Shown one piece after another: positions 1 to 32,866 of a DNA stretch of 64,000 nucleotides. The notes beneath the pieces are model-generated. The model ran no database searches and had not been told where the DNA came from. It saw only the letters and a list, made by a program, of their open reading frames with translations. Made by a program: the position numbers and the translations under genes. Each line of letters starts with the position of its first letter. The stretch's first letter is position 1. This DNA is from Pseudomonadota bacterium (GTDB lineage Bacteria; Desulfobacterota; Desulfovibrionia; Desulfovibrionales; Desulfovibrionaceae), in assembly GCA_018817515.1 (NCBI GenBank), contig JAHIUD010000021.1, forward strand, positions 60,582 to 124,581, written 5' to 3'.

Positions 1-722
1 ATGCGCAAGGGTGGCTCCAGGGCGCAGGCGGCCAGGAGGTCATGGTCAGCGAAGATCGCGGCAGTGGGGCCGTCGGCCATGACGCGGCCCTGGTGCAGAA
101 CCACGGTGCGTTCGCAGAGGTCAAGCACCATGTCCAGGTCATGCGTGGCCAGGATTTTGGTATGCTTGAACCCGCGCAATAGCTCGATCAGCAGGCGGCG
201 TGAGCGGGGGTCAAGGTTGGCCGAGGGCTCGTCCATGACCAGGATGTCCGGCGAGCACGCCAGGACCGTGGCGATGGCCACGGCGCGCTTCTCGCCGCCG
301 GAGAGTCGGTGCGGCGGGCGGTGCTTCAGGTGCAGGGCGTCCACCTGGGCCAGGGCCTGGTCCACGCGCAGGGCGGCCTCCTCTGGCGGCAGGCCGATGT
401 TCAGCGGGCCGAAGGCAACGTCCTCGGCCACGGTGGGCATGAACAGCTGGTCGTCCGGATCTTGAAAGACGAGGCCGACAGTCCGCCGTACTTCGTTCAG
501 GGTGCTGGGAACAACTGGCACGTCACCCACGCGCACGCGGCCCGTCTGGGGCACATGGACGCCGCAGAGGTGCTGGAGCATGGTCGACTTGCCTGCGCCG
601 TTGGCCCCGACAAGGCCCACGGATTCGCCGTGGTGGATGGTCAGGTCGATGCTGTCCAGGGCCGGGGTGCCGTCCGGGTAATGGAAGCTCAGGCCCTTCA
701 ATTCGACGATGTGGTGGCTCAC
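1..722 (-). CDS. cbiO: Cobalt/nickel ECF transporter ATP-binding protein (CbiO-like), truncated by window start
   Basis: Minus-strand reading from GTG at 722: VSHHIVELKGLSFHYPDGTPALDSI...GANGAGKST (Walker A)...LSGGEKR...ILVMDEPSANLDP; overlaps the end of cbiQ. Not in the ORF list because it runs off the window. Confidence 0.9.
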   Translation of the reverse strand, partial: MSHHIVELKGLSFHYPDGTPALDSIDLTIHHGESVGLVGANGAGKSTMLQHLCGVHVPQTGRVRVGDVPVVPSTLNEVRRTVGLVFQDPDDQLFMPTVAEDVAFGPLNIGLPPEEAALRVDQALAQVDALHLKHRPPHRLSGGEKRAVAIATVLACSPDILVMDEPSANLDPRSRRLLIELLRGFKHTKILATHDLDMVLDLCERTVVLHQGRVMADGPTAAIFADHDLLAACALEPPLR

Positions 723-23615: not shown

Positions 23616-25574
23616 TCAGGGGGCGGCGTCAAGCTCCGCCAGTCGCGCCTCAACCTGTTCCCAACGGGCAAAGGCCTCCTCCAACTCGGCTTCCATGGCC
23701 ACCAGCTCGTTGCGCGCGGAGGTAAGCACCTTGGGCGCTTTCTTGTAGAGTTCCGGGTCGGCCAGGCGCTCCGTGGCCTTGGCGATGTCCTGCTCCAGAG
23801 TCTCGATGCGCGCGGGGAGGGAAGTGCGTTCCTGCAGGAGCGCCTCTCTCTCACGCTGCTCCTTGAAGCTGAGTTTGCGCGGTTTCGCCGTTGAAGAAGT
23901 CGTTGAAGAAACAGTTGTCTCCAAAGCCAGAGGCTGCTTGACCAGCGCGGGTTTGGCCGATGCCTTAAGCGTTGTTGAATCCGTCGGCGCGGGCCTCTGG
24001 CGCAGCCAGTCGTCGTAGCCGCCGATGTATTCCGCCACTGCGCCTTCGCCCTCGAAAACCAGGGTGCTTGTCACCACGTTGTTCAGGAATGCGCGGTCGT
24101 GGCTCACCAGGATCAGCGTGCCGGGATATTCCATGAGGCGGTCCTCAAGGAGCTCCAGGGTCTCGGCGTCCAGGTCGTTGGTGGGTTCGTCCATGACCAG
24201 CACATTGGAGGGCCGGGTGAACAGGCGCGCAAGGAGCAGGCGGTTGCGCTCACCGCCGGAGAGCACGCGCACCGGGCTGTTGGCCCGCTCGGGCGCGAAA
24301 AGGAAATCCTTCAGGTAGCCCATGACATGGCGCGTGTGGCCGTTGATGGTGACCTGGTCGCTGCCCTCGGCCACGCTCTCGCGCACGCTCTTGTTCGGGT
24401 CCAGCTCCTCGCGGTGCTGGTCGAAGTAGGCCACCTCCATGTTCGTGCCCAGGCGCACGGTGCCGCTGTCGGGCTTGATCTTGCCCAGCAGCACCTGAAT
24501 GAGCGTGGTCTTGCCAGCGCCGTTGGGGCCGATGAGACCCAGCTTGTCGCCGCGCATGATGGACAGGTTGAGGTTCTGGAAAACCGGGGTCCCCTCTGGG
24601 CCGTTGTCCCAGCAATAGGAAACGCCCTTGGCCTCCACCACAAGCTTGCCGGAGCGTTCGGCCTCCTGCACGATGATTGTGGCCGTGCCTGTGCGTTCGC
24701 GCCGCAGCGCGCGCTCGTCGCGCAGCTTCTTGAGCTCGCGCACACGCCCCTCGTTCCTCGTGCGCCGCGCCTTGACGCCCTGGCGCACCCAGACCTCCTC
24801 ACGGGCGAGCTTCTTGTCGAACTCGGCCCAGGTTTTTTCCTCGGAGGCCAGCTGGGCTTCCTTGCGCGTCAGAAATGTCTCGTAGTCGCAGGACCAGTCG
24901 GCCAGCTTGCCGCGGTCCAGCTCGATGATGCGCGTGGCGATGCGCCGCAGGAACATGCGGTCGTGGGTGATGAAGATGAGCGTGCGCACGTGGCGCAGCA
25001 GGAAGTCTTCCAACCAGGAGATGGAGTCGATGTCCAGGTGGTTGGTGGGCTCGTCGAGCAACAGCACGTCGGGGTTGCCCACCAGTGCGCGGGCGAGCAG
25101 GGCCCGGCGCTTGAGTCCGCCGGAAAGGTCTTCGAAGCGCTGGTCAGGATTCAGCGCCAGGCGCGAGATGGCTGTGTCCACATCCGCCAGGGACTCCCAG
25201 CCGCCGACCTCGGACAGGGCCGTCTGCGCATCGGCCAGGCGGTCCATGTCGCCGCTGGCCAGTGCGCGGTGGTGCTCGGCAATGTGCTCGCCCACTTTGC
25301 CCAGGCCCTGGGTCACAACCTCATATATGGTGCCGGTGAGCACCTCCGGGACCTTTTGCGACAGGCGCGCCACGGTGAGCCCGGCGGACCGCGCTATCTC
25401 GCCCGAATCCGGGGTCAGGTCGCCGGAGAGCAGGCGCAACAGCGTGGACTTGCCCTCGCCGTTGCGGCCCAGGAGACAGATGCGCTGGCCCGGCTCCACC
25501 TGAAAGGAGATGCCGTCGAGGAGTCGGGGTCCGCCAAAACTCATGGAAAGATTATTTACGCTGAAGAGTGCCAT
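23616..25574 (-). CDS. uup: ABC-F family ATPase, Uup-like
   Basis: Two ABC domains (GRNGEGKST, GPNGAGKTT; LSGGLKRR, LSGGERNR) plus C-terminal coiled coil; start MALFSVNNLSMSFGG. Confidence 0.9.
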   Translation of the reverse strand: MALFSVNNLSMSFGGPRLLDGISFQVEPGQRICLLGRNGEGKSTLLRLLSGDLTPDSGEIARSAGLTVARLSQKVPEVLTGTIYEVVTQGLGKVGEHIAEHHRALASGDMDRLADAQTALSEVGGWESLADVDTAISRLALNPDQRFEDLSGGLKRRALLARALVGNPDVLLLDEPTNHLDIDSISWLEDFLLRHVRTLIFITHDRMFLRRIATRIIELDRGKLADWSCDYETFLTRKEAQLASEEKTWAEFDKKLAREEVWVRQGVKARRTRNEGRVRELKKLRDERALRRERTGTATIIVQEAERSGKLVVEAKGVSYCWDNGPEGTPVFQNLNLSIMRGDKLGLIGPNGAGKTTLIQVLLGKIKPDSGTVRLGTNMEVAYFDQHREELDPNKSVRESVAEGSDQVTINGHTRHVMGYLKDFLFAPERANSPVRVLSGGERNRLLLARLFTRPSNVLVMDEPTNDLDAETLELLEDRLMEYPGTLILVSHDRAFLNNVVTSTLVFEGEGAVAEYIGGYDDWLRQRPAPTDSTTLKASAKPALVKQPLALETTVSSTTSSTAKPRKLSFKEQREREALLQERTSLPARIETLEQDIAKATERLADPELYKKAPKVLTSARNELVAMEAELEEAFARWEQVEARLAELDAAP

Positions 25575-25670: not shown

Positions 25671-25702
25671 AAAAGAAAACCCCGGACGCTCTTTCCGGGG
25701 TT
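25671..25702 (-). terminator. Distal copy of the tmRNA terminator (island left edge)
   Basis: aaaagaAaaccccggacgctctttccggggtt, 31/32 identical to 32252-32283. Confidence 0.8.
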
Positions 25703-25730
25703 TTTCTTTAAATTCTGGTAGTCTCGTTCT

Positions 25731-25775
25731 TTGCTGGAAAATCTTGAAAGGACATTTGGGGCGGAGTCAATCGAA
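25731..25775 (-). repeat. Decayed copy of the tmRNA 3' end / att site
   Basis: Minus strand TTCGATTgaCTCCGCC...AAGATttTCCAGCAaAG matches tmRNA TTCGATTccCTCCGCC...AAGATcgTCCAGCAcAG. Confidence 0.6.
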
Positions 25776-26071
25776 TTTTACAGCTAACATTCTGTTAATA
25801 CGTTGTTTATTAAATGCGAAAATTTGTAGTTGCACGTTTTGTTGTACGGTTGCGTATGAGGTTGCCCTTCACTCGGTCTAACTGTTCTGGTCGAAAGCTG
25901 ACCCTCACCAAGAAGGGAGCCCGTCGAATTGTGCTCGACATGCTCAGAGCAACAATCGTTTCCTCGGTAGCAATTTCTCTGTGATACCAAAACTGATACC
26001 ACCGATTTCGGCGCTGCCCCTTTTCCCGCTGGCGGAAGCTATCATGACAAAACCACCGGGCAAACTAGGAA

Positions 26072-26773
26072 TCAGAATGAACGTTGATTCCAATTGGAAA
26101 AGGTGGCCTTGATATACGAAAGGAACTCAAGTCCAAACTGAGTAATTTTATATAATGAAGCATCTTGCGGCCCAGATACAGCAAGCACTCCAGATGTTAT
26201 GAGAAAGCCAAGATAATCTTTTATCTGATAAGATGTGTTGTTTGCAATGAGCTGATGCTTTGCATAGTGCCATGAAATCTGTGACATTTGAACTGGTGCA
26301 TCTGGATTGTCTGCCAGTTGCTCAAGAAGCGAAATCTGCGTTCCATAAATTCTATTCATCAGCCATTCTGCCCTGTAAAGAGAATTGATACGCCTGTATT
26401 CGATGACAGTCTGTATCGGGTTTTTACGTGCGTAATCAACAGCGGCAATTCCTTGAGGGTCATTTGCTAATTCAGGAGGCAGCGGTGGCTGTGGATGTTG
26501 AGGCGCAACTGAATCCGCAGCAACTGTTGGCTGAGCTTCTACAGCTTTTGCAAATAAGTCTTCACCTACGCCTTTAGATTCTTGCTGCTGTTCACGGTGG
26601 GGAGCATTAAATTCGTTACCCATAATGCGTGCAGAGACGAGACGTTTCAGGAAGTCTTCAATTGCCTTGCGGAAAGTGAACGTCAGCAATATCGCAATAA
26701 CCAGTGCTATCGGGGGCCAACTCAAAACCACCTTCACAAATGATAGCAACATCGCCCAATCAATATTGCACAC
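26072..26773 (-). CDS. Membrane-anchored protein of unknown function with C-terminal winged-helix-like region
   Basis: N-terminal TM helix (LSWPPIALVIAILLTFTF); C-terminal ISWHYAKHQLIANNTSYQIKDYLGFLITSGVLAVSG; probable GTG start 26773 after AAGGGGG. Confidence 0.6.
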   Translation of the reverse strand: MCNIDWAMLLSFVKVVLSWPPIALVIAILLTFTFRKAIEDFLKRLVSARIMGNEFNAPHREQQQESKGVGEDLFAKAVEAQPTVAADSVAPQHPQPPLPPELANDPQGIAAVDYARKNPIQTVIEYRRINSLYRAEWLMNRIYGTQISLLEQLADNPDAPVQMSQISWHYAKHQLIANNTSYQIKDYLGFLITSGVLAVSGPQDASLYKITQFGLEFLSYIKATFSNWNQRSF

Positions 26774-27027
26774 TAAGGCCCCCTTCACGTCGATTACGTG
26801 ACACGCGCAGCACAAACAGACACTAAGTCAATTTTGAAATATCTGATAACGCAAACTCCGCCGTCTGGCTAGGGGGAGGCTCACTGCTCGCAAAAAAAGG
26901 GAGAGACAGGTTGTCCCATCCCTCCCCTAAGAAATCTTCCCTCGCCGTGAAACATCGGTCTCGTGAAACGTAGAAATTTAACCCTTTTGAGGGCTTCTGA
27001 GCGGCGAGGCAGGGTGAATGCCTTCGG

Positions 27028-27441
27028 CTATTCCTGCGAGGGCTCCTGAGGTGCCACAAGCCTCCCTGTGACGGGTTCCCTGCGCTGCTTATTGGCTTGA
27101 GCCCGCCGCGCCTCCCGGTATTCCTCCGTGATACGCCGCTTACCCATGCGGTGAGGCCAGAGGGCGCACGGTGGGTTATCGAGAAAGGGCTTGTACGCCG
27201 TACAGGTTCTTACTTCTTCCGCGCTTCCTGCACAGTCCAGGCACTGAGCGCGGATGGTACGAAGGGCCGTATCAGCTCCGGGCTCGGATTGGGACAGCCG
27301 GAGCGGGTAAGCGGGGCAGGTCGTTACCGGGCAGTTGGCGGGGTTTTCATCGCCGTTGCACCATCGGCAGTTCTTGCGGATTGCAGTACGGGGAGAGAAG
27401 CGCTTGCCCTCGTACACAGGGCTTTCGTTGCTGTTCTTCAT
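27028..27441 (-). CDS. Cys-rich (putative zinc-binding) hypothetical protein
   Basis: 137 aa with CRWC, CPVTTC, CLDC...C...C pairs. Confidence 0.65.
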   Translation of the reverse strand: MKNSNESPVYEGKRFSPRTAIRKNCRWCNGDENPANCPVTTCPAYPLRLSQSEPGADTALRTIRAQCLDCAGSAEEVRTCTAYKPFLDNPPCALWPHRMGKRRITEEYREARRAQANKQRREPVTGRLVAPQEPSQE

Positions 27442-27454
27442 GTCCAGCCCCTCC

Positions 27455-27661
27455 CTACTGAGCGCCCAGGCTGTCGATGAGGACGCGGATATCTTCAGCC
27501 CGCCAAGCTGTCATACGAGCGCCCAGCTTCACAGGCTTGGGGTAGCGGCCCGCTTTCACTCCGGCCCACCACGTCGAGCGCCCCACAGGGATGAGGGAGA
27601 GCACTGCGGGTTCCCGCAGAAAGCCAGTGGTGGGGATGCGTAATGGTAAGACTTCAATCAT
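27455..27661 (-). CDS. AlpA-family phage regulatory protein
   Basis: 68 aa: FLREPAVLSLIPVGRSTWWAGVKAGRYPKPVKLGARMTAWRAEDI; typical AlpA layout. Confidence 0.85.
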   Translation of the reverse strand: MIEVLPLRIPTTGFLREPAVLSLIPVGRSTWWAGVKAGRYPKPVKLGARMTAWRAEDIRVLIDSLGAQ

Positions 27662-27762
27662 TTTGGAATCTCCTTTGAGAGGCTAGAGTTTGGCCCAACT
27701 GCGGGCAGGATGAAACGCGGTCCTTAGCCGGGGAAGACCCCAGGCCAGAGCCACAAATGAGA

Positions 27763-27794
27763 AACGCCGCCTCCCAGTGGTGGGAAACGGCGTT
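27763..27794. promoter_or_regulatory. Stem-loop upstream of the AlpA-like gene
   Basis: aacgccgcctcccagtggtgggaaacggcgtt nested inverted repeat. Confidence 0.5.
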
Positions 27795-27898
27795 ACGTCC
27801 GGTGGGTGAGTCGTGGGCTATGAGGACTGAGGAGCCGAGCCGAGAGGACGGCGCAGCACCGCCTATGGGCAGCTATGAGGAGCTTTGGGAACCGGGAG

Positions 27899-28075
27899 GT
27901 ATGCTGGTCTCACCCGTGCCGCCAAACGCGCTCCAAAGGGCAGGATTTGAACGGCTCACGGTTGGGAACGGCTCATTTTGAGGAGCAAAGGGTGCCTATG
28001 GGGGGAATCTGAGCGTGGGATGAGGGACAAGCCCCCTCGCACTTATGATTTGAAAATTTCAAACCAGGGAATCTA
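27899..28075. repeat. Island repeat X, copy 1
   Basis: Shared blocks gctggYctcacc, cggctMattttgag, atggggggaatcYgagcg, caagccccctcg with 29500-29680. Confidence 0.6.
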
Positions 28076-28341
28076 CGCGGCGAGGCTCTGAGGGATACCC
28101 AGGTACACAATCTGCCCTTTGGAACAGATGGAGGGGAAGTCGCGCATCCTGTACCGTTACTGTTCGCGCATGCCCACCGCGCTTGGGCCTCTTTCTCTTC
28201 CTTCGTGAGAAGAACATCGAGTTCAACCTCGTCCGTGAAGGTGTTTTCGTCGAACACTTCCTCATAACTCTTGGCATACACAGCCTCAAGCTCTTCAAAG
28301 GAAACATCCTTATGTGCTTCATCAATCATGGGGAACAACAC
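27973..28341 (-). CDS. Small acidic hypothetical protein
   Basis: 122 aa ORF; start GTG/ATG 28341-28329 after AGGGAG; overlaps repeat X copy 1 so its C-terminus is uncertain. Confidence 0.35.
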   Translation of the reverse strand: MLFPMIDEAHKDVSFEELEAVYAKSYEEVFDENTFTDEVELDVLLTKEEKEAQARWACANSNGTGCATSPPSVPKGRLCTWVSLRASPRRFPGLKFSNHKCEGACPSSHAQIPPIGTLCSSK

Positions 28342-28438
28342 TCCCTAGCACAGCTCGATAGCATCCCTCCCAAGGAACACTCGGTAGCAACCCTGGGTAG
28401 TAATACTATGGAACAATGCTAATCTTTAATACTAAGAT

Positions 28439-28489
28439 GGAACCAAAGGCACCTTCTCCTGGTGTAGAATAGGAACCACAAGGAATAAC
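28439..28489. repeat. Island repeat Y, copy 1
   Basis: ggaaccaaaggcaccttctcctggtgtagaataggaaccacaaggaataac. Confidence 0.8.
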
Positions 28490-28568
28490 TGCGGTTTTCA
28501 GAAGTTTTCCACAGATTTCAGGAATTTCCCGGAGGTTCCCCTATATTTATACGCTAAGGCCATATCAG

Positions 28569-29099
28569 CTACCCCTCCTGCGCGATGGGGACGATCTTGG
28601 ACTCGGTGTCCTTGAACCGGGCCTTACCATCCTTGCGAAGCTGCGAGAGCTTACCCTCAAGGGAACCCACACGGTTGTCAGCGGTGTCGCTCTTGGCTCC
28701 CATGTAGGGGTGTTCCTCGATCAGCTTGGGCCACACCTCGTTGACGATGGTGGCTCCCACGTTGCAGCGTAGGTCTTTCTCGATAGCGCACGAGAACACC
28801 TCGTAGTCCTCCGCCGAGGTGACGCAGGCCACATCATGGAGGTACTTAGCCAGGGCAGCTCCCCTGATCTTCTCGTCTGCGATGTCGGCCAGTGTGTCCA
28901 CCAGCCACTTGTCAGACTTGCAGGAGAACACGGTCCCCTGCTTGGGGGTAGACGTGGTGTAGAACAGCACCTTGGGGGACAGTGTGAGGTACAAGTACCT
29001 CTTGACCAGTTCGTGGTGCTTGTAGGTGGCAACAATGGCCTCCTTCTCCTTGAGAGAAGCTGTGGACCTCAGCTCTGTGAGCAGTGTGTGCAGAGTCAT
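28569..29099 (-). CDS. Phage ATP-dependent DNA ligase N-terminal-domain-like fragment lacking the KxDG adenylation domain
   Basis: ATG 29099 after AAGGAG; SAEDYEVFSCAIEKDLRCNVGATIVNEVWPKLIEEHPYMGAKS resembles phage ligase N-domains; stops before any nucleotidyltransferase core. Confidence 0.55.
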   Translation of the reverse strand: MTLHTLLTELRSTASLKEKEAIVATYKHHELVKRYLYLTLSPKVLFYTTSTPKQGTVFSCKSDKWLVDTLADIADEKIRGAALAKYLHDVACVTSAEDYEVFSCAIEKDLRCNVGATIVNEVWPKLIEEHPYMGAKSDTADNRVGSLEGKLSQLRKDGKARFKDTESKIVPIAQEG

Positions 29100-29170
29100 G
29101 GTGTGAACTCCTTGTGGGTAACAGGTGGTAGGGTAGCTCTCCAGGGGTACTGGTGAGTGGGTAACAAGAG

Positions 29171-29220
29171 GGAACCAAGGCTCCTTCTCCTGGTGTAGAA
29201 TAGGAACCATAAGGAATGAC
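29171..29220. repeat. Island repeat Y, copy 2
   Basis: ggaaccaaggctccttctcctggtgtagaataggaaccataaggaatgac; 27-nt core identical to copy 1. Confidence 0.8.
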
Positions 29221-29265
29221 AGCATTTTTTGGGCATATTTTCGGGCACGCTGAGGTCGTATCCTT

Positions 29266-29422
29266 ACGGATTGCGACGAGCTTTGATGTAGCATATGATA
29301 TAGTCCCTGTAGTCGTGCGCCCTCGGCTGGTTGACATTTCCGCAGTCTTTGAACCGCTCTTTCCCGTCCTTGCGGAGCTTCGAAAGCTTCCCTTCGAGGT
29401 AGCCGATACGGTTTTCAGCGGA
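29266..29422 (-). pseudogene. Fragment paralogous to the tail of the 28569-29099 ORF
   Basis: SAENRIGYLEGKLSKLRKDGKERFKDCGN versus TADNRVGSLEGKLSQLRKDGKARFKDTES; no start codon found nearby. Confidence 0.5.
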
Positions 29423-29499
29423 GGGGGAGAGAGGAGAGCAGGGACAACGCGGCGTAGGGCCACCTCACGAGGTGGTAGGCGCTTCCTGCGAGCGGGGAG

Positions 29500-29680
29500 A
29501 TAGGCTGGCCTCACCTTCGAGCATTCAAAGCGTCTGTACGGCTAATTTTGAGCGTTTCACCTAGGGGGGGAGCGCCGATTTGAAGCGCAAGGGGGCATGG
29601 GGGGAATCCGAGCGCAGGAGCCTGTGCAAGCCCCCTCGGATTAGCATACTCGAAATTTAGAACCTGAGCCGACCGGGCGG
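29500..29680. repeat. Island repeat X, copy 2
   Basis: See 27899-28075; gggggg...gcgcaggagcctgtgc...cccccc pairing potential. Confidence 0.6.
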
Positions 29681-29907
29681 GGGAGACAAGGGGGATAAAT
29701 CGCGCTGGGCAGTTCTAAGCTTTCATGCCAGCGTGTGAGCGTATACTCCTAATGATTCTCAGTAAATCAGCGATTCGCTCTTGACATCACTTGCCGAATT
29801 GATATAGCGGATAGGAAGTAATATTTGCTGTGGAGCGCTGGAGTCACGGTCTTCACAATGGTTGCTTTAGTTGTATCCTGAATGTTCTTCAGGACTAAGG
29901 GAGGGTA

Positions 29908-30183
29908 GTGATGGCTTTTCTCGGTATTGTTATTGGGATGATGCTTGATGTTATCATCGTACCAGCTATTTTCATCGGGATTTATTCACGGAATATTTTG
30001 ATGGCAACATTGCTTGGCGCAGTGAGTGGCGTTGCAATGCACGTCTTGACTTCATTCTTTTGGATTACTCAAAAGCCAGTGGTGCTGATTATCCCGCATA
30101 TTATCGCTGGATGCTTGTTGTCACTTATTTTCTATGGTGCGGCTTGTGCTGTCAGAAAGCGCAAAGCTGCAAGACATAACTAA
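29908..30183 (+). CDS. Small membrane protein of unknown function
   Basis: 91 aa, about three hydrophobic segments. Confidence 0.55.
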   Translation: MMAFLGIVIGMMLDVIIVPAIFIGIYSRNILMATLLGAVSGVAMHVLTSFFWITQKPVVLIIPHIIAGCLLSLIFYGAACAVRKRKAARHN

Positions 30184-30237
30184 CTTGCCTATTTGTCGAG
30201 TTAGGTCAGAACAGGCTCTGGAGACTAGGAGAGTGAC

Positions 30238-30591
30238 ATGGTTTACCTGATCGCAGTTCTCATGGGGTATTTTGTAGGAACGAACGCGATTGTTGAAAGG
30301 CAAGTTAAAGCATCTGCTGGCTGTGGGTACTACAATTCAACTCTTGGAACCCTATCTGCGCTCGGTGGCTTTGGCGGTTGGTTTTGTGCGATACCAGCAG
30401 CGTATTTCGTTGGATCGGCATGGGGCAATGGCGTTGTGGATGGAGTGCTCTTCATCCTTGCCGTCCTAGGGGGAGCATTCGCTTCTGGATTTCTCAGGAG
30501 AAACCCCTTGAATTACCTGCTGAGTGCGTTGACTCTCCCGGCCAATGTCGCGTTGGTTTTCGTCGTGTATACACTCTCAAAGCGCTGGTAG
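30238..30591 (+). CDS. Small membrane protein of unknown function
   Basis: 117 aa, several hydrophobic segments; gaggag-like RBS upstream. Confidence 0.6.
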   Translation: MVYLIAVLMGYFVGTNAIVERQVKASAGCGYYNSTLGTLSALGGFGGWFCAIPAAYFVGSAWGNGVVDGVLFILAVLGGAFASGFLRRNPLNYLLSALTLPANVALVFVVYTLSKRW

Positions 30592-30624
30592 CCGTGCGCA
30601 TGATTTCCGGCCTCAGAGGGAACA

Positions 30625-30921
30625 ATGCCTAAAGCTGCGATATACACGACCGCCGCAATGCTTATCCTCGGAGCACTCCCGTTGCCCTATGGCTATTACA
30701 TGCTTCTGCGCATCATCGCCTGTGGAGCCTTCGCCTATGCTTGCCTTATCGCCTACAGAATGCGGGGCGGCTTACTACCCTGGGCCTATGGCCTCTTTGC
30801 GGTTGTCTTCAATCCCCTCATCCCTATCCGCCTCAGCAAAGGCAAATGGATGGTTGTTGACATCATCGCAGGGGCGACCCTGATTTTGACCGCCAAGAGC
30901 ATCAGTTCCCAAGAGAGATAG
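30625..30921 (+). CDS. Small membrane protein (DUF6804-like)
   Basis: ALPLPYGYYMLLRIIACGAFAY...FNPLIPIRLSKGKWMVVDI. Confidence 0.6.
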   Translation: MPKAAIYTTAAMLILGALPLPYGYYMLLRIIACGAFAYACLIAYRMRGGLLPWAYGLFAVVFNPLIPIRLSKGKWMVVDIIAGATLILTAKSISSQER

Positions 30922-30925
30922 CCGC

Positions 30926-32146
30926 TCACTCCTCGCCAATCGCTTTAAACAGGGGCACAACCTTGCCTCCCTCGCGGAGCGCGTCTATGTGGTCAGCCCA
31001 TGCTTGCATCATCTTCCGTCGCTCCGGCAGGAACTCCGCAAAGTTGTAAGCGGCTCGGACGTTGTTCCGCTCAGCGTGGGCCAACTGGCGTTCAATGGCG
31101 TCACGATTCCACCCCAACTCATTGAGCAGGGTAGAGGCGATGCTGCGGAAGCCGTGCCCGGTCATTTCGTCCTTTGCGTAACCAAGACGGCGCAGGGCGG
31201 CGGTAACGGTATTTTCGGACATGGGACGGGAGGCCGTGCGCTCACCTGGGAACACATAGCGACCCGTCCCCGTAAGCGGCTTGATCTCTTCCAAGACGGC
31301 CAGGGCTTGCTTGCTCAGAGGGACAATGTGCTGAGTGCGCATCTTCATCTTGTGGGCAGGGATGCGCCACTCTGCGGCCTCTTCGTTGATCTCGGACCAC
31401 TCCGCATGGCGTAGTTCTCCGGGGCGAACGAACACCAACGGAGCCAGTCGAAGAGCACAGCGCGTAATGAGGCTTCCCTTGTAGGTTTCGATGGTGCGGA
31501 GGAGTTCGCTAACCGCCCCCGGCTCAGTGAGGCTGGCGTGGTGCTTTTCGTTGGTGGGGGAGAGTGCCCCGCGCAGATCGCGTGTAGGGTCCGAATCGGC
31601 CAAGCCAGCGGCCACGGCGTAGCGAAACACCATGCCGATGTTCCCCACAAGGCGGTGGGCTGTTTCAATGGCTCCCCGTGATTCCACGCGGCGGGCCACA
31701 GACAGGACTTCGGGCGGGAGGATGTCCCGGATAGCCTTGGAACCAATCCAGGGGAAGGCGTCTTTCTCAAGGCTGGTCATAATGCGAGCGGCATGGCCCG
31801 GTGTCCACTTGGAGTTGAACTTCTCATGCCACTGGCGGGCCACAAGCTCAAAGGTCTCTATCTGCTGCTGCTCCTGTACGCGAGCATCCTTCCTGGCGTT
31901 GCTGGGGTCTATCCCTTGGGCGATGAGCTTGCGGGCTTCCTCGCGGCGCTCACGGGCCTGGACAAGGGAGATTTCGGGATAGGTGCCGAGGGAGATTCGG
32001 TTGGGCTTGCCGCCGAAGGTGTAGCGGAGTCGCCACCACTTGCCGCCCTTCGGGGAGATTTCGAGATTGAGGCCGCGTCCGTCATTGAGGACGTATGTCT
32101 TGTCCTTGGGCTTCGCGTTGCGAATGGCGGTATCCGTTAGAGCCAC
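30926..32146 (-). CDS. P4-type tyrosine site-specific integrase
   Basis: N-terminal Arm-DNA-binding domain (ALTDTAIRNAKPKDKTYVLNDGRGLNLEISPKGGKWWRLRY) and catalytic residues R (FVRPGELR), HGFR, QLAHAE, Y (RAAYN); GTG start 32146. Confidence 0.93.
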   Translation of the reverse strand: MALTDTAIRNAKPKDKTYVLNDGRGLNLEISPKGGKWWRLRYTFGGKPNRISLGTYPEISLVQARERREEARKLIAQGIDPSNARKDARVQEQQQIETFELVARQWHEKFNSKWTPGHAARIMTSLEKDAFPWIGSKAIRDILPPEVLSVARRVESRGAIETAHRLVGNIGMVFRYAVAAGLADSDPTRDLRGALSPTNEKHHASLTEPGAVSELLRTIETYKGSLITRCALRLAPLVFVRPGELRHAEWSEINEEAAEWRIPAHKMKMRTQHIVPLSKQALAVLEEIKPLTGTGRYVFPGERTASRPMSENTVTAALRRLGYAKDEMTGHGFRSIASTLLNELGWNRDAIERQLAHAERNNVRAAYNFAEFLPERRKMMQAWADHIDALREGGKVVPLFKAIGEE

Positions 32147-32204
32147 CGGGCTTTCCCCCTTCACGCCGTACAAGTTGAAAGGGATTTTGGGCTGATTGAG
32201 GCGT

Positions 32205-32230
32205 GTTGTACAGATATCTATACGTACAAC
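32205..32230. promoter_or_regulatory. Inverted repeat upstream of integrase
   Basis: gttgtac-N12-gtacaac. Confidence 0.5.
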
Positions 32231-32251
32231 TCCCGGATGTCAACGAACGAT

Positions 32252-32285
32252 AAAAGACAACCCCGGACGCTCTTTCCGGGGTTAC
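32252..32285 (-). terminator. tmRNA-proximal terminator (duplicate of 25671-25702)
   Basis: aaaagaCaaccccggacgctctttccggggtt. Confidence 0.75.
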
Positions 32286-32338
32286 CCTTTGAAATCACTG
32301 GATTTCTGTACTGTGTTGGGCTGTGCTGGACGATCTTC

Positions 32339-32694
32339 TGGTGGAGGCGGAGGGAATCGAACCCTCGTCCGAGAACGCTTTGCTCGAGGTATCTACAGGT
32401 TTAGTCCGGGTTTGATTCTCGTCGCCATGCGTGCCCCCGAACAGGTATCATGTCGACATGTCCGCCTTGTGCCGCGTGCATACGGCGGACGCCATCTGCA
32501 CGCCGACCCGATGGGGTTTGTCGATCCTAACAGACGTATCGGGTGTCAGTCAGAAGGATCGTGACTGGTTATTAAGCAGCCAGAGCGTAATCGTAGTCGT
32601 TGGCACTTGAGTGCTTGCCGCTTTTTACGAGGCCAGCGGCGCCTCGACCTGCAACCTCGGCATCGACTGTCCCCGTCGAAACCGGTGCGCCCCC
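32339..32694 (-). ncRNA. ssrA: tmRNA (transfer-messenger RNA), tag ANDYDYALAA
   Basis: 5' GGGGGCGCACCGGTTTCGACGGGGACAG..., tag GCC AAC GAC TAC GAT TAC GCT CTG GCT GCT TAA (32572-32604), 3' GGTTCGATTCCCTCCGCCTCCACCA; 5' and 3' ends pair. Confidence 0.97.
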
Positions 32695-32757
32695 ATATCA
32701 AAGAACGTCTTGCTAAAAGATAAGCCTTTACCCAGCGAAGGCAAGTACCAAAAACAA

Positions 32758-32785
32758 AACCGCGCCCGAAAGCGCGGTGTTTTGT
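32758..32785 (-). terminator. Terminator downstream of tRNA-Met
   Basis: accgcgcccgaaagcgcggtgtttt read on either strand. Confidence 0.65.
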
Positions 32786-32789
32786 CTTG

Positions 32790-32866
32790 TGGTAGCGAGG
32801 GAGGGAATTGAACCCCCGACACTGCGGATATGAGCCGCATGCTCTGACCGACTGAGCTACCTCGCC
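32790..32866 (-). tRNA. tRNA-Met (CAT)
   Basis: GGCGAGGTAGCTCAGTCGGTCAGAGCATGCGGCTCATATCCGCAGTGTCGGGGGTTCAATTCCCTCCCTCGCTACCA cloverleaf, encoded CCA. Confidence 0.95.

Follow-up and report, generated by a model that had tools for sequence, protein, structure and literature searches.

The 64-kb window (the whole stretch of DNA analysed here) carries a mobile Humidesulfovibrio island of the CP4-57 type, 6.59 kb long and lying within the 3' end of the tmRNA gene, which is most probably a compact integrative cargo island of CP4-57/IntA type without replication or transfer genes. Attachment-site copies, integrase domains and location all bear out an earlier sequence-only reading, which had proposed a P4-integrase island at ssrA.

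Island ends at the tmRNA gene

The true ends of the island are two copies of the tmRNA 3' end, such that it spans about 25767-32352 and runs in the order att, terminator, int, slot 1, phage-packaging remnants, alpA, Cys-rich protein, slot 2, att. GC content is 0.542 in the island (25776-32338) versus 0.636 elsewhere in the 64-kb window, with no other 6.5-kb stretch below 0.609 in a scan of the window, and the low GC is concentrated mainly in the cargo slots. The low-GC segment of ~6.5 kb that had been placed between uup and ssrA is therefore upheld, as is its border at ssrA, but its left end lies near 25767, at the displaced tmRNA 3' end, rather than at 25671. In keeping with the Islander principle, an intact RNA gene stands at one end and a 3'-end fragment in like orientation at the other, with a tyrosine integrase gene within the island. 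The ends and their neighbours are as follows.

23619-25568, minus strand: uup, neighbouring gene beyond the distal end
25678-25702, minus strand: second copy of the ssrA terminator (exact 25-mer), outside the island
25755-25851, minus strand: att-proximal arm, conserved with sister island G002:C12
25760-25775, minus strand: displaced attachment core TTCGATTGACTCCGCC; the tail beyond it lacks tmRNA nt 70-73
32215-32243, minus strand: candidate int promoter TTGACA-17-TAGATA, read by eye and absent from the promoter-scan list
32259-32283, minus strand: ssrA terminator carried by the island (exact 25-mer)
32339-32694, minus strand: ssrA (tmRNA), the target gene (ARAGORN; Rfam RF00023, 195 bits)
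32346-32361, minus strand: resident attachment core TTCGATTCCCTCCGCC
32790-32866, minus strand: tRNA-Met, neighbour beyond ssrA

The attachment core reads TTCGATT(GA/CC)CTCCGCC at 25760-25775 and 32346-32361, and a search allowing ≤2 mismatches gave 3 matches in 64 kb against 0.07 expected; the final ssrA bases, from about 32352 down, come from the island. For the exact 25-mer terminator pair, 0.00 are expected by chance in the window. A 45-bp direct repeat (25671-25715 and 32252-32296) was rejected as the attachment site, being the ssrA terminator hairpin. The tail-terminator-int order was found at 13/13 loci tested, and TTGACATC lies 94-95 nt past the RNA gene in most sister islands. Although the integrase does sit beside ssrA, it does not abut the tmRNA CCA end as had been claimed: the gene lies 196 bp beyond ssrA, and the island-borne terminator and promoter-like sequence intervene.

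Backbone, cargo slots and phage remnants

Within these ends we recognise the following features.

26072-26815, minus strand: slot 2 cargo, 247-aa protein with a single TM helix and a C-terminus resembling a winged helix
26897-26928, minus strand: terminator ending the alpA-Cys operon, kept in G002
27028-27441, minus strand: Cys-rich protein, 137 aa, eight invariant Cys; conserved alpA partner
27455-27661, minus strand: alpA, excisionase/regulator (Pfam E 8.6e-8, over the gathering score)
27886-28039, minus strand: repeat R, second copy (comparison with sister island L160)
27973-28341, minus strand: remnant of a T7-like terminase large subunit gene start, visible only through L160
28569-29099, minus strand: truncated remnant of a phage ATP-dependent ligase N-terminus (phrog_114, E 3.6e-22)
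29345-29421, minus strand: terS C-terminus-like segment, first copy (L160 comparison)
29487-29638, minus strand: repeat R, first copy (L160 comparison)
29908-30183, plus strand: slot 1 cargo, small membrane protein, 91 aa (ORF)
30238-30591, plus strand: slot 1 cargo, small membrane protein, 117 aa (ORF)
30625-30921, plus strand: slot 1 cargo, DUF6804 membrane protein, 98 aa (Pfam E 1.6e-22)
30926-32143, minus strand: P4-type tyrosine integrase, CP4-57 IntA-like (Arm-DNA-bind_3, Phage_int_M and Phage_integrase)

Domain searches and ORFs thus confirm the P4-type integrase, AlpA-like regulator and Cys-rich protein of the sequence-only reading, together with its TM protein, three small membrane proteins and phage remnants (the ligase N-terminus plus terS/terL pieces). 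As in other CP4-57-type ssrA islands, an IntA-family integrase adjoins ssrA, judged by domains and location, and alpA is present. By its sequence the integrase is a member of the CP4-57 IntA family but of another equivalog, because its score against NCBIfam PRK09692 (327 bits) falls under the curated cut-off of 434. A model of the Cys-rich protein (pLDDT 73) gave no match with E <2 in a fold search, and comparison with PDB sequences gave no credible match.

Slots 1 and 2 both flank the backbone and hold interchangeable cargo. Among 15 genus genomes the DUF6804 protein occurs in the window only, the 117-aa protein has weak relatives in 2/246 other family genomes, and the 91-aa protein had no family match in profile searches (including Pfam, PHROGs and NCBIfam). 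Viral-contig scans with the 247-aa, 117-aa and DUF6804 proteins returned no match; a structure prediction of the 247-aa protein was discarded (pLDDT 39). PADLOC found no credible defence gene within the island (best E 0.008), as the sequence-only reading had held, whereas sister islands do carry recognisable ones: L161 has CBASS in slot 2 and L160 has type IIG restriction there, and the slot is empty in G002:C12. Position suggests that the slot genes may be cargo of the phage-defence or superinfection-exclusion type.

The terS and terL pieces were recognised via L160, and the ligase remnant carries a second copy of the terS tail (28608-28684) as a fusion. We discount a KxDG-like motif in this ORF as spurious, since the tail of the ORF is the terS-like segment also present in L160. 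Profile searches of the island ORFs gave no match to a relaxase, transfer or replication gene (the last already reported missing), which sets the island apart from integrative conjugative or mobilizable elements.

Excision, relatives and rival readings

The sequence shows that the island lies in the ssrA acceptor end and that the old tail and terminator stand displaced at the far end; the int end brings a replacement tmRNA tail, the ssrA terminator and then int, such that the tmRNA is restored upon integration. AlpA probably acts as excisionase/activator with the Cys-rich protein as its likely partner, the pieces of terS, terL and ligase are presumably relics, and movement would need a helper or passive DNA transfer because replication and transfer genes are lacking.

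Nucleotides 70-73 are absent from the displaced tail, among them the U of the G3-U70 pair, and the tail is thus damaged from nt 70 as in CP4-57-type islands (the E. coli tail was re-read as a control). Excision would give a tmRNA lacking both the G3-U70 pair and an encoded CCA, and CTCCGCCTCCACCA would not be kept. Because of this lesion, excision should inactivate the host tmRNA, by analogy with CP4-57 and CP4So, where such damage is experimentally proven (PMC10107115, PMC5148205), and island retention would therefore be tied to tmRNA function. ARAGORN still calls a tmRNA at the in silico excision junction, so it is the published mutants that support the predicted loss of function. Tails of relatives hold 11 single deletions, 11/11 compatible with position 70, with no single deletion elsewhere in positions 64-75 and no single substitution in the 17-nt window. 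Because Islander already describes the position-70 lesion, we dropped the idea that it is a new rule; the damage among relatives is confirmation, not discovery.

Of 72 relatives of the same int family with upstream sequence, 20 target tmRNA and 48 tRNA. Sister islands have the int-alpA-Cys backbone in common, with cargo swapped between conserved pieces. The comparison of the uup-ssrA interval that had been suggested showed it to be variable, with the 247-aa, 117-aa and DUF6804 proteins missing from 14/14 congeners, but no empty site (ssrA joined directly to uup) was found among congeners. In most of these uup is not adjacent to ssrA, an isochorismatase-like gene precedes uup in most, and the ssrA-uup neighbourhood is common only to a small subclade; G014 has ssrA without an integrase within 7 kb, but its surroundings differ. 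When distal copies were sought less strictly, by local alignment, no significant copy emerged at most loci; many contigs stop before the distal end.

That the island is dead, with integrase and alpA inactive and the displaced tail decaying without selection, is the strongest rival, though we think it rather unlikely. Related ssrA loci do contain broken integrases (split in G003, with a stop in G019) and the phage genes here are remnants, but the reading frames of int, alpA and the Cys-rich gene are complete, their terminators are retained, and neutral decay predicts no fixed lesion site, yet all 11 single deletions fit position 70. Somewhat more doubtful is a bolder version of the cargo-island reading, in which the island holds host ribosome rescue hostage, its loss bringing death or poor growth, and both slots encode undescribed phage-defence genes. 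The slot genes concerned would be the one for the 247-aa TM/winged-helix-like protein and the three membrane-protein genes that include DUF6804. A search of the genome for ArfB found none, and an NFACT/RqcH-like protein is present.

A decayed P4- or PICI-like phage satellite of a former T7-like helper, with the terS/terL segment as its leftover packaging module, is improbable. It would fit the terS tail and terL start, which occupy the same place between repeat R copies in the window and L160, and the primase/helicase-like genes read by eye in some sister islands. P4-like satellites have at least five of int, psu, delta, sid, alpA, epsilon and alpha (PMC8628076), whereas Pfam and PHROGs searches found only int and alpA here; moreover, the terminase pieces are truncated, the window copy having lost more than the L160 copy, and no capsid-size or helper-control gene is present. 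Between the two origins first offered, decayed satellite or small cargo island, the shared backbone with swapped cargo and the absence of five of the seven P4-satellite components favour the cargo island. Ordinary vertically inherited ssrA-uup DNA of locally low GC is scarcely credible: the restriction of that neighbourhood to a small subclade makes gain and loss hard to polarise, but the tmRNA-end direct repeats, the integrase, cargo turnover, cargo absence from every congener and the clear GC shift contradict it, and the same genes do not recur at uup-ssrA in all relatives.

Comparison with known systems

The integrative cargo island resembles CP4-57 of E. coli K-12 in its ssrA 3' end target, IntA-family integrase, alpA and tail damage at nt 70, and the defence-type cargo of CP4-57 (AbpAB, RnlAB) counts as a further likeness. 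Unlike the 6.6-kb window island, CP4-57 is 22 kb, has yfjI (DUF3987) and many further genes, no recognised Cys-rich partner gene, and a tail lesion of 1 nt rather than 4 nt. CP4So of Shewanella oneidensis likewise combines a P4-type integrase and AlpA at ssrA, and its excision takes out the wobble U and abolishes tmRNA (PMC5148205), but it is 36 kb and H-NS regulated in the cold. P4-like phage satellites are alike in P4-type integrase and AlpA and keep defence genes in a hot spot adjoining int (PMC8628076); the window island lacks their psu, sid, delta, epsilon and alpha. The Dehalococcoides ssrA-specific islands, tandem cargo islands past ssrA with 3'-end repeats (PMC3146451), are alike in ssrA-end repeats and cargo but their recombinase, DsiB, is of the serine type and not a tyrosine integrase.

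At 6.6 kb and with int and alpA intact, the island is a compact object for asking whether tmRNA-targeting islands resist loss, and its two cargo slots, which hold CBASS or restriction in sister islands, are a source of uncharacterised genes for defence assays. In Desulfovibrionaceae, as in gammaproteobacteria, the ssrA hot spot appears to operate with a tail that repairs itself, a terminator carried by the island and a lesion at position 70.

Layout, composition and ends of the island

Our evaluation of the island, which lies in a draft host genome of 3.6 Mb (114 contigs, ~95% complete), recovered all of the components named in the sequence-only reading: an integrase beside ssrA (the tmRNA gene), AlpA, a Cys-rich protein, a TM protein, three small membrane proteins and phage remnants.

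Features of the island and its flanks (window positions)
32694-32339, minus: ssrA (tmRNA)
32283-32259, minus: terminator downstream of ssrA
32243-32215, minus: TTGACA-17-TAGATA sequence, read by eye and absent from the promoter-scan list
32143-30926, minus: P4-type integrase (int), intact
30925-29808: cargo slot 1, here holding the membrane trio
30921-29908, strand opposite to int: three small membrane proteins, the last being DUF6804
Between membrane trio and alpA: phage-remnant zone
27661-27455, minus: alpA
27441-27028, minus: Cys-rich gene, 137 aa
26928-26897, minus: terminator after the Cys-rich gene
26891-25852: cargo slot 2, here holding the 247-aa gene
26815-26072, minus: 247-aa gene
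25775-25760, minus: displaced tmRNA 3' end, followed by the second ssrA terminator and then uup
25702-25678, minus: second exact copy of the ssrA terminator

The lower GC content noted earlier also held (54.2% versus 63.6%), with every other 6.5-kb stretch of the window being higher; by part, the two cargo slots accounted for the low values (0.50 and 0.47), and int (0.61) and alpA-cys (0.60) were near the host. An Rfam tmRNA_permuted match just over threshold (32572-32852, across the ssrA end and a tRNA-Met) was taken as spurious, ssrA here being a normal one-piece gene.

The attachment core is found as a resident copy at ssrA (TTCGATTCCCTCCGCC, 32361-32346) and as a displaced copy at the far end (TTCGATTGACTCCGCC, 25775-25760), and its pattern, allowing ≤2 mismatches, occurs 3 times in 64 kb versus 0.07 expected. 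These cores bound an island of about 25767-32352 (6.59 kb), and the left end had previously been placed at what proves to be the terminator repeat. The same core form was seen at the distal ends of other ssrA islands, both in relatives (G002:C12, TTCGATTGACTCCGCCCC; G003, TTCGAGTGACTCCGCC) and outside the genus (Nitrosovibrio, TTCGAGTGACGCCGCC; Methylophaga, TTGGATTGACGCCGTC). A regular expression built from these distal sites matched 6 times in the loci examined, 6/6 at ssrA-island distal ends, which, given its derivation from the sites themselves, serves as a consistency check and no test.

Replacement tails and damage to the displaced tmRNA end

Each ssrA island of this type supplies its own tail, consisting of TCCACCA, ~15-60 nt, a terminator hairpin and then int, and tmRNA survives integration because the island brings this tail. 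A hairpin with T-rich tail was present at 13/13 loci tested (weak in G029, a relative), motif TTGACATC lies mostly 94-95 nt past the tmRNA end in ssrA islands, and terminators of two families (AACCCCGG...CCGGGGTT and GCCCCGCGAAAGCGGGGT) are seen repeatedly across the genus. Two comparison loci (L046 5449-11597 and L048 13695-18203) hold large PAS sensor-gene units with ssrA terminator copies and att remnants on both sides and no integrase of their own in view.

The displaced tail reads CTCCGCC/CCAAATG versus CTCCGCC/TCCACCA in the resident copy, such that nt 70-73 are missing. The tmRNA obtained by joining the flanks in silico has lost U70 from the G3-U70 pair, has a mismatched first pair and encodes no CCA; ARAGORN still calls a tmRNA at this junction, so function is not settled by the gene finder. 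Experiments on CP4-57 and CP4So have shown that tmRNA activity is abolished when this U is lost on excision, and damage at the same place in other gammaproteobacterial ssrA islands is tabulated in the literature (PMC10107115, PMC5148205). The host encodes SmpB, two RF-1-domain proteins with RF1- and RF2-sized frames and an NFACT/RqcH-like protein, with no third RF-1-domain protein as a possible ArfB in the ~95% complete genome. If tmRNA matters in this host, losing the island would be costly.

We evaluated such lesions across 98 RNA-gene/integrase pairs (L045-L262; 766 kb downstream; tmRNA, tRNA-Ala, tRNA-Met and tRNA-Leu targets) in a 14-nt window (63-76) with position not fixed. This revealed 11 single deletions; position 70 fits every one of them, 9 uniquely, although these are not 11 independent events, since some loci are close relatives and the E. 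coli K-12 control (resident CGCCAGC/TCCACCA, displaced CGCCAGC/CCACCA) is among them, and the idea itself came from ssrA cases. Three copies were intact, and no single deletion fell elsewhere in the 14-nt window, nor did any arise in shuffles. A later set (L263-L437) added 13 new pairs and 2 displaced copies, in both of which the lesion fits position 70 (ambiguous over 69-71). A lesion site fixed in this way speaks against neutral decay of the displaced tail. Islander already mentions such nt-70 damage, leaving its cause unexplained. Some displaced tails have lost more, with 4 nt missing in both the window and G002:C12 and, by eye, 12 nt missing in G003 and 19 nt in G002:C1. These larger lesions seem to begin at the same base, which suggests that they arise by loss from the integrase cut.

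Integrase relatives, cargo slots and phage remnants

Among the closest 80 integrase relatives in named genomes, 72 had enough upstream sequence; the RNA gene preceding them, in most cases by 160-300 bp, was tmRNA for 20 and a tRNA gene for 48. Within the genus, ssrA acts as a hot spot, with tandem islands in G002 and G003 and, directly at the G002 ssrA, a further, different integrase (~603 aa). In L047 (7468-9279), L051 and L027, the ssrA 3' end is directly adjoined by a second large, unrelated-looking integrase, which puts the number of integrase types using this site in the family at two or more. Integrases related to this one (58% and 54%) mark two further islands in the host genome (L167, G000:C72 and L168, G000:C76); one of these islands lies at tRNA-Ser and has an AlpA-like segment together with a gene resembling a methyltransferase. 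An 'Alphaproteobacteria' MAG contig (L065, JAQUHK010000163.1), probably a misbinned Desulfovibrionaceae contig, carries ssrA and integrase DNA 76-79% identical to the window, and its cargo beside int differs, being DNA methyltransferase-like.

Aligning sister islands to the window revealed that int, the zone around repeat R (which flanks the phage remnants) and alpA-cys-terminator (to 26892) are conserved, with the stretches between them replaced from island to island. Slot 1 holds, by eye, a Sel1-like protein in L160 (the G014 island) and a lipoprotein-like protein in L161 (G002:C8 2695-9095, at tRNA-Leu). Slot 2 is empty in G002:C12, where the alpA-cys end directly meets the conserved att-proximal 97 bp; it carries Vsr, Dcm and a type IIG enzyme (E 1.2e-195) in L160, and in L161 a complete CBASS pair, cyclase (E 4e-80) and 4TM effector (E 1.7e-74), located past the Cys-rich gene and directly before the distal att. 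Cargo of other ssrA islands includes type III Mod/Res in G003, the set NotI, Dcm and Abi_alpha in G001, an Mrr-type enzyme in G002 and type I restriction in L166. The window's own slot genes gave no credible match in a defence-system search, and their position suggests that this cargo may be defence-type. A single weak relative of the 247-aa protein was found in 246 other family genomes (L174 6113-6769, a lone gene within a riboflavin operon) and one in 395 other genomes sampled from the phylum. DUF6804 genes also occur on plasmids: in Paenibacillus close to a SIR2 and ATP-binding protein pair, and on the Agrobacterium At plasmid close to a restriction endonuclease (L192/L191 loci).

The Cys-rich protein, present in 75/247 family genomes, adjoins alpA within the genus and may be a partner regulator of AlpA. 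Its 8 invariant cysteines suggest two putative zinc sites, and a fold search with its moderate model (pLDDT 73) returned no match.

Between its two repeat R copies, L160 holds a terminase small subunit C-terminus (phrog_891, E 2.1e-9) and a large subunit N-terminus (phrog_17672, E 3.5e-73; podophages, 59-63% identity). The window has two terS-tail copies, the second fused to a ligase N-terminus, and a terL start with an internal deletion, recognisable only via L160. We take these pieces for relics. They could also represent a captured packaging signal, but continuing loss of the phage pieces argues against this. A 60-nt repeat (85-88%; 28434-28498 and 29166-29229), possibly a phage regulatory sequence, lies ahead of the ligase fragment and terL remnant.

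ALTERNATIVES: rival readings and known islands

The sequence-only reading had proposed comparing the uup-ssrA interval in relatives, which yielded no exact empty site: only a small subclade has ssrA linked to uup, and the G014 ssrA, followed by a P-type ATPase gene with no integrase within 7 kb, lies in other surroundings. The island could conceivably be dead. As for its having been called a decayed satellite or a small cargo island, the satellite fails the P4-like definition, with 2/7 components, and the slots replaced between sisters favour the cargo island, whose cargo is worth testing. The island is a compact CP4-57-type ssrA island, a kind already known and here precisely bounded, and it shares with other such islands the nt-70 damage of the displaced tail, which spans 4 nt in the window versus 1 nt in E. 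coli K-12.
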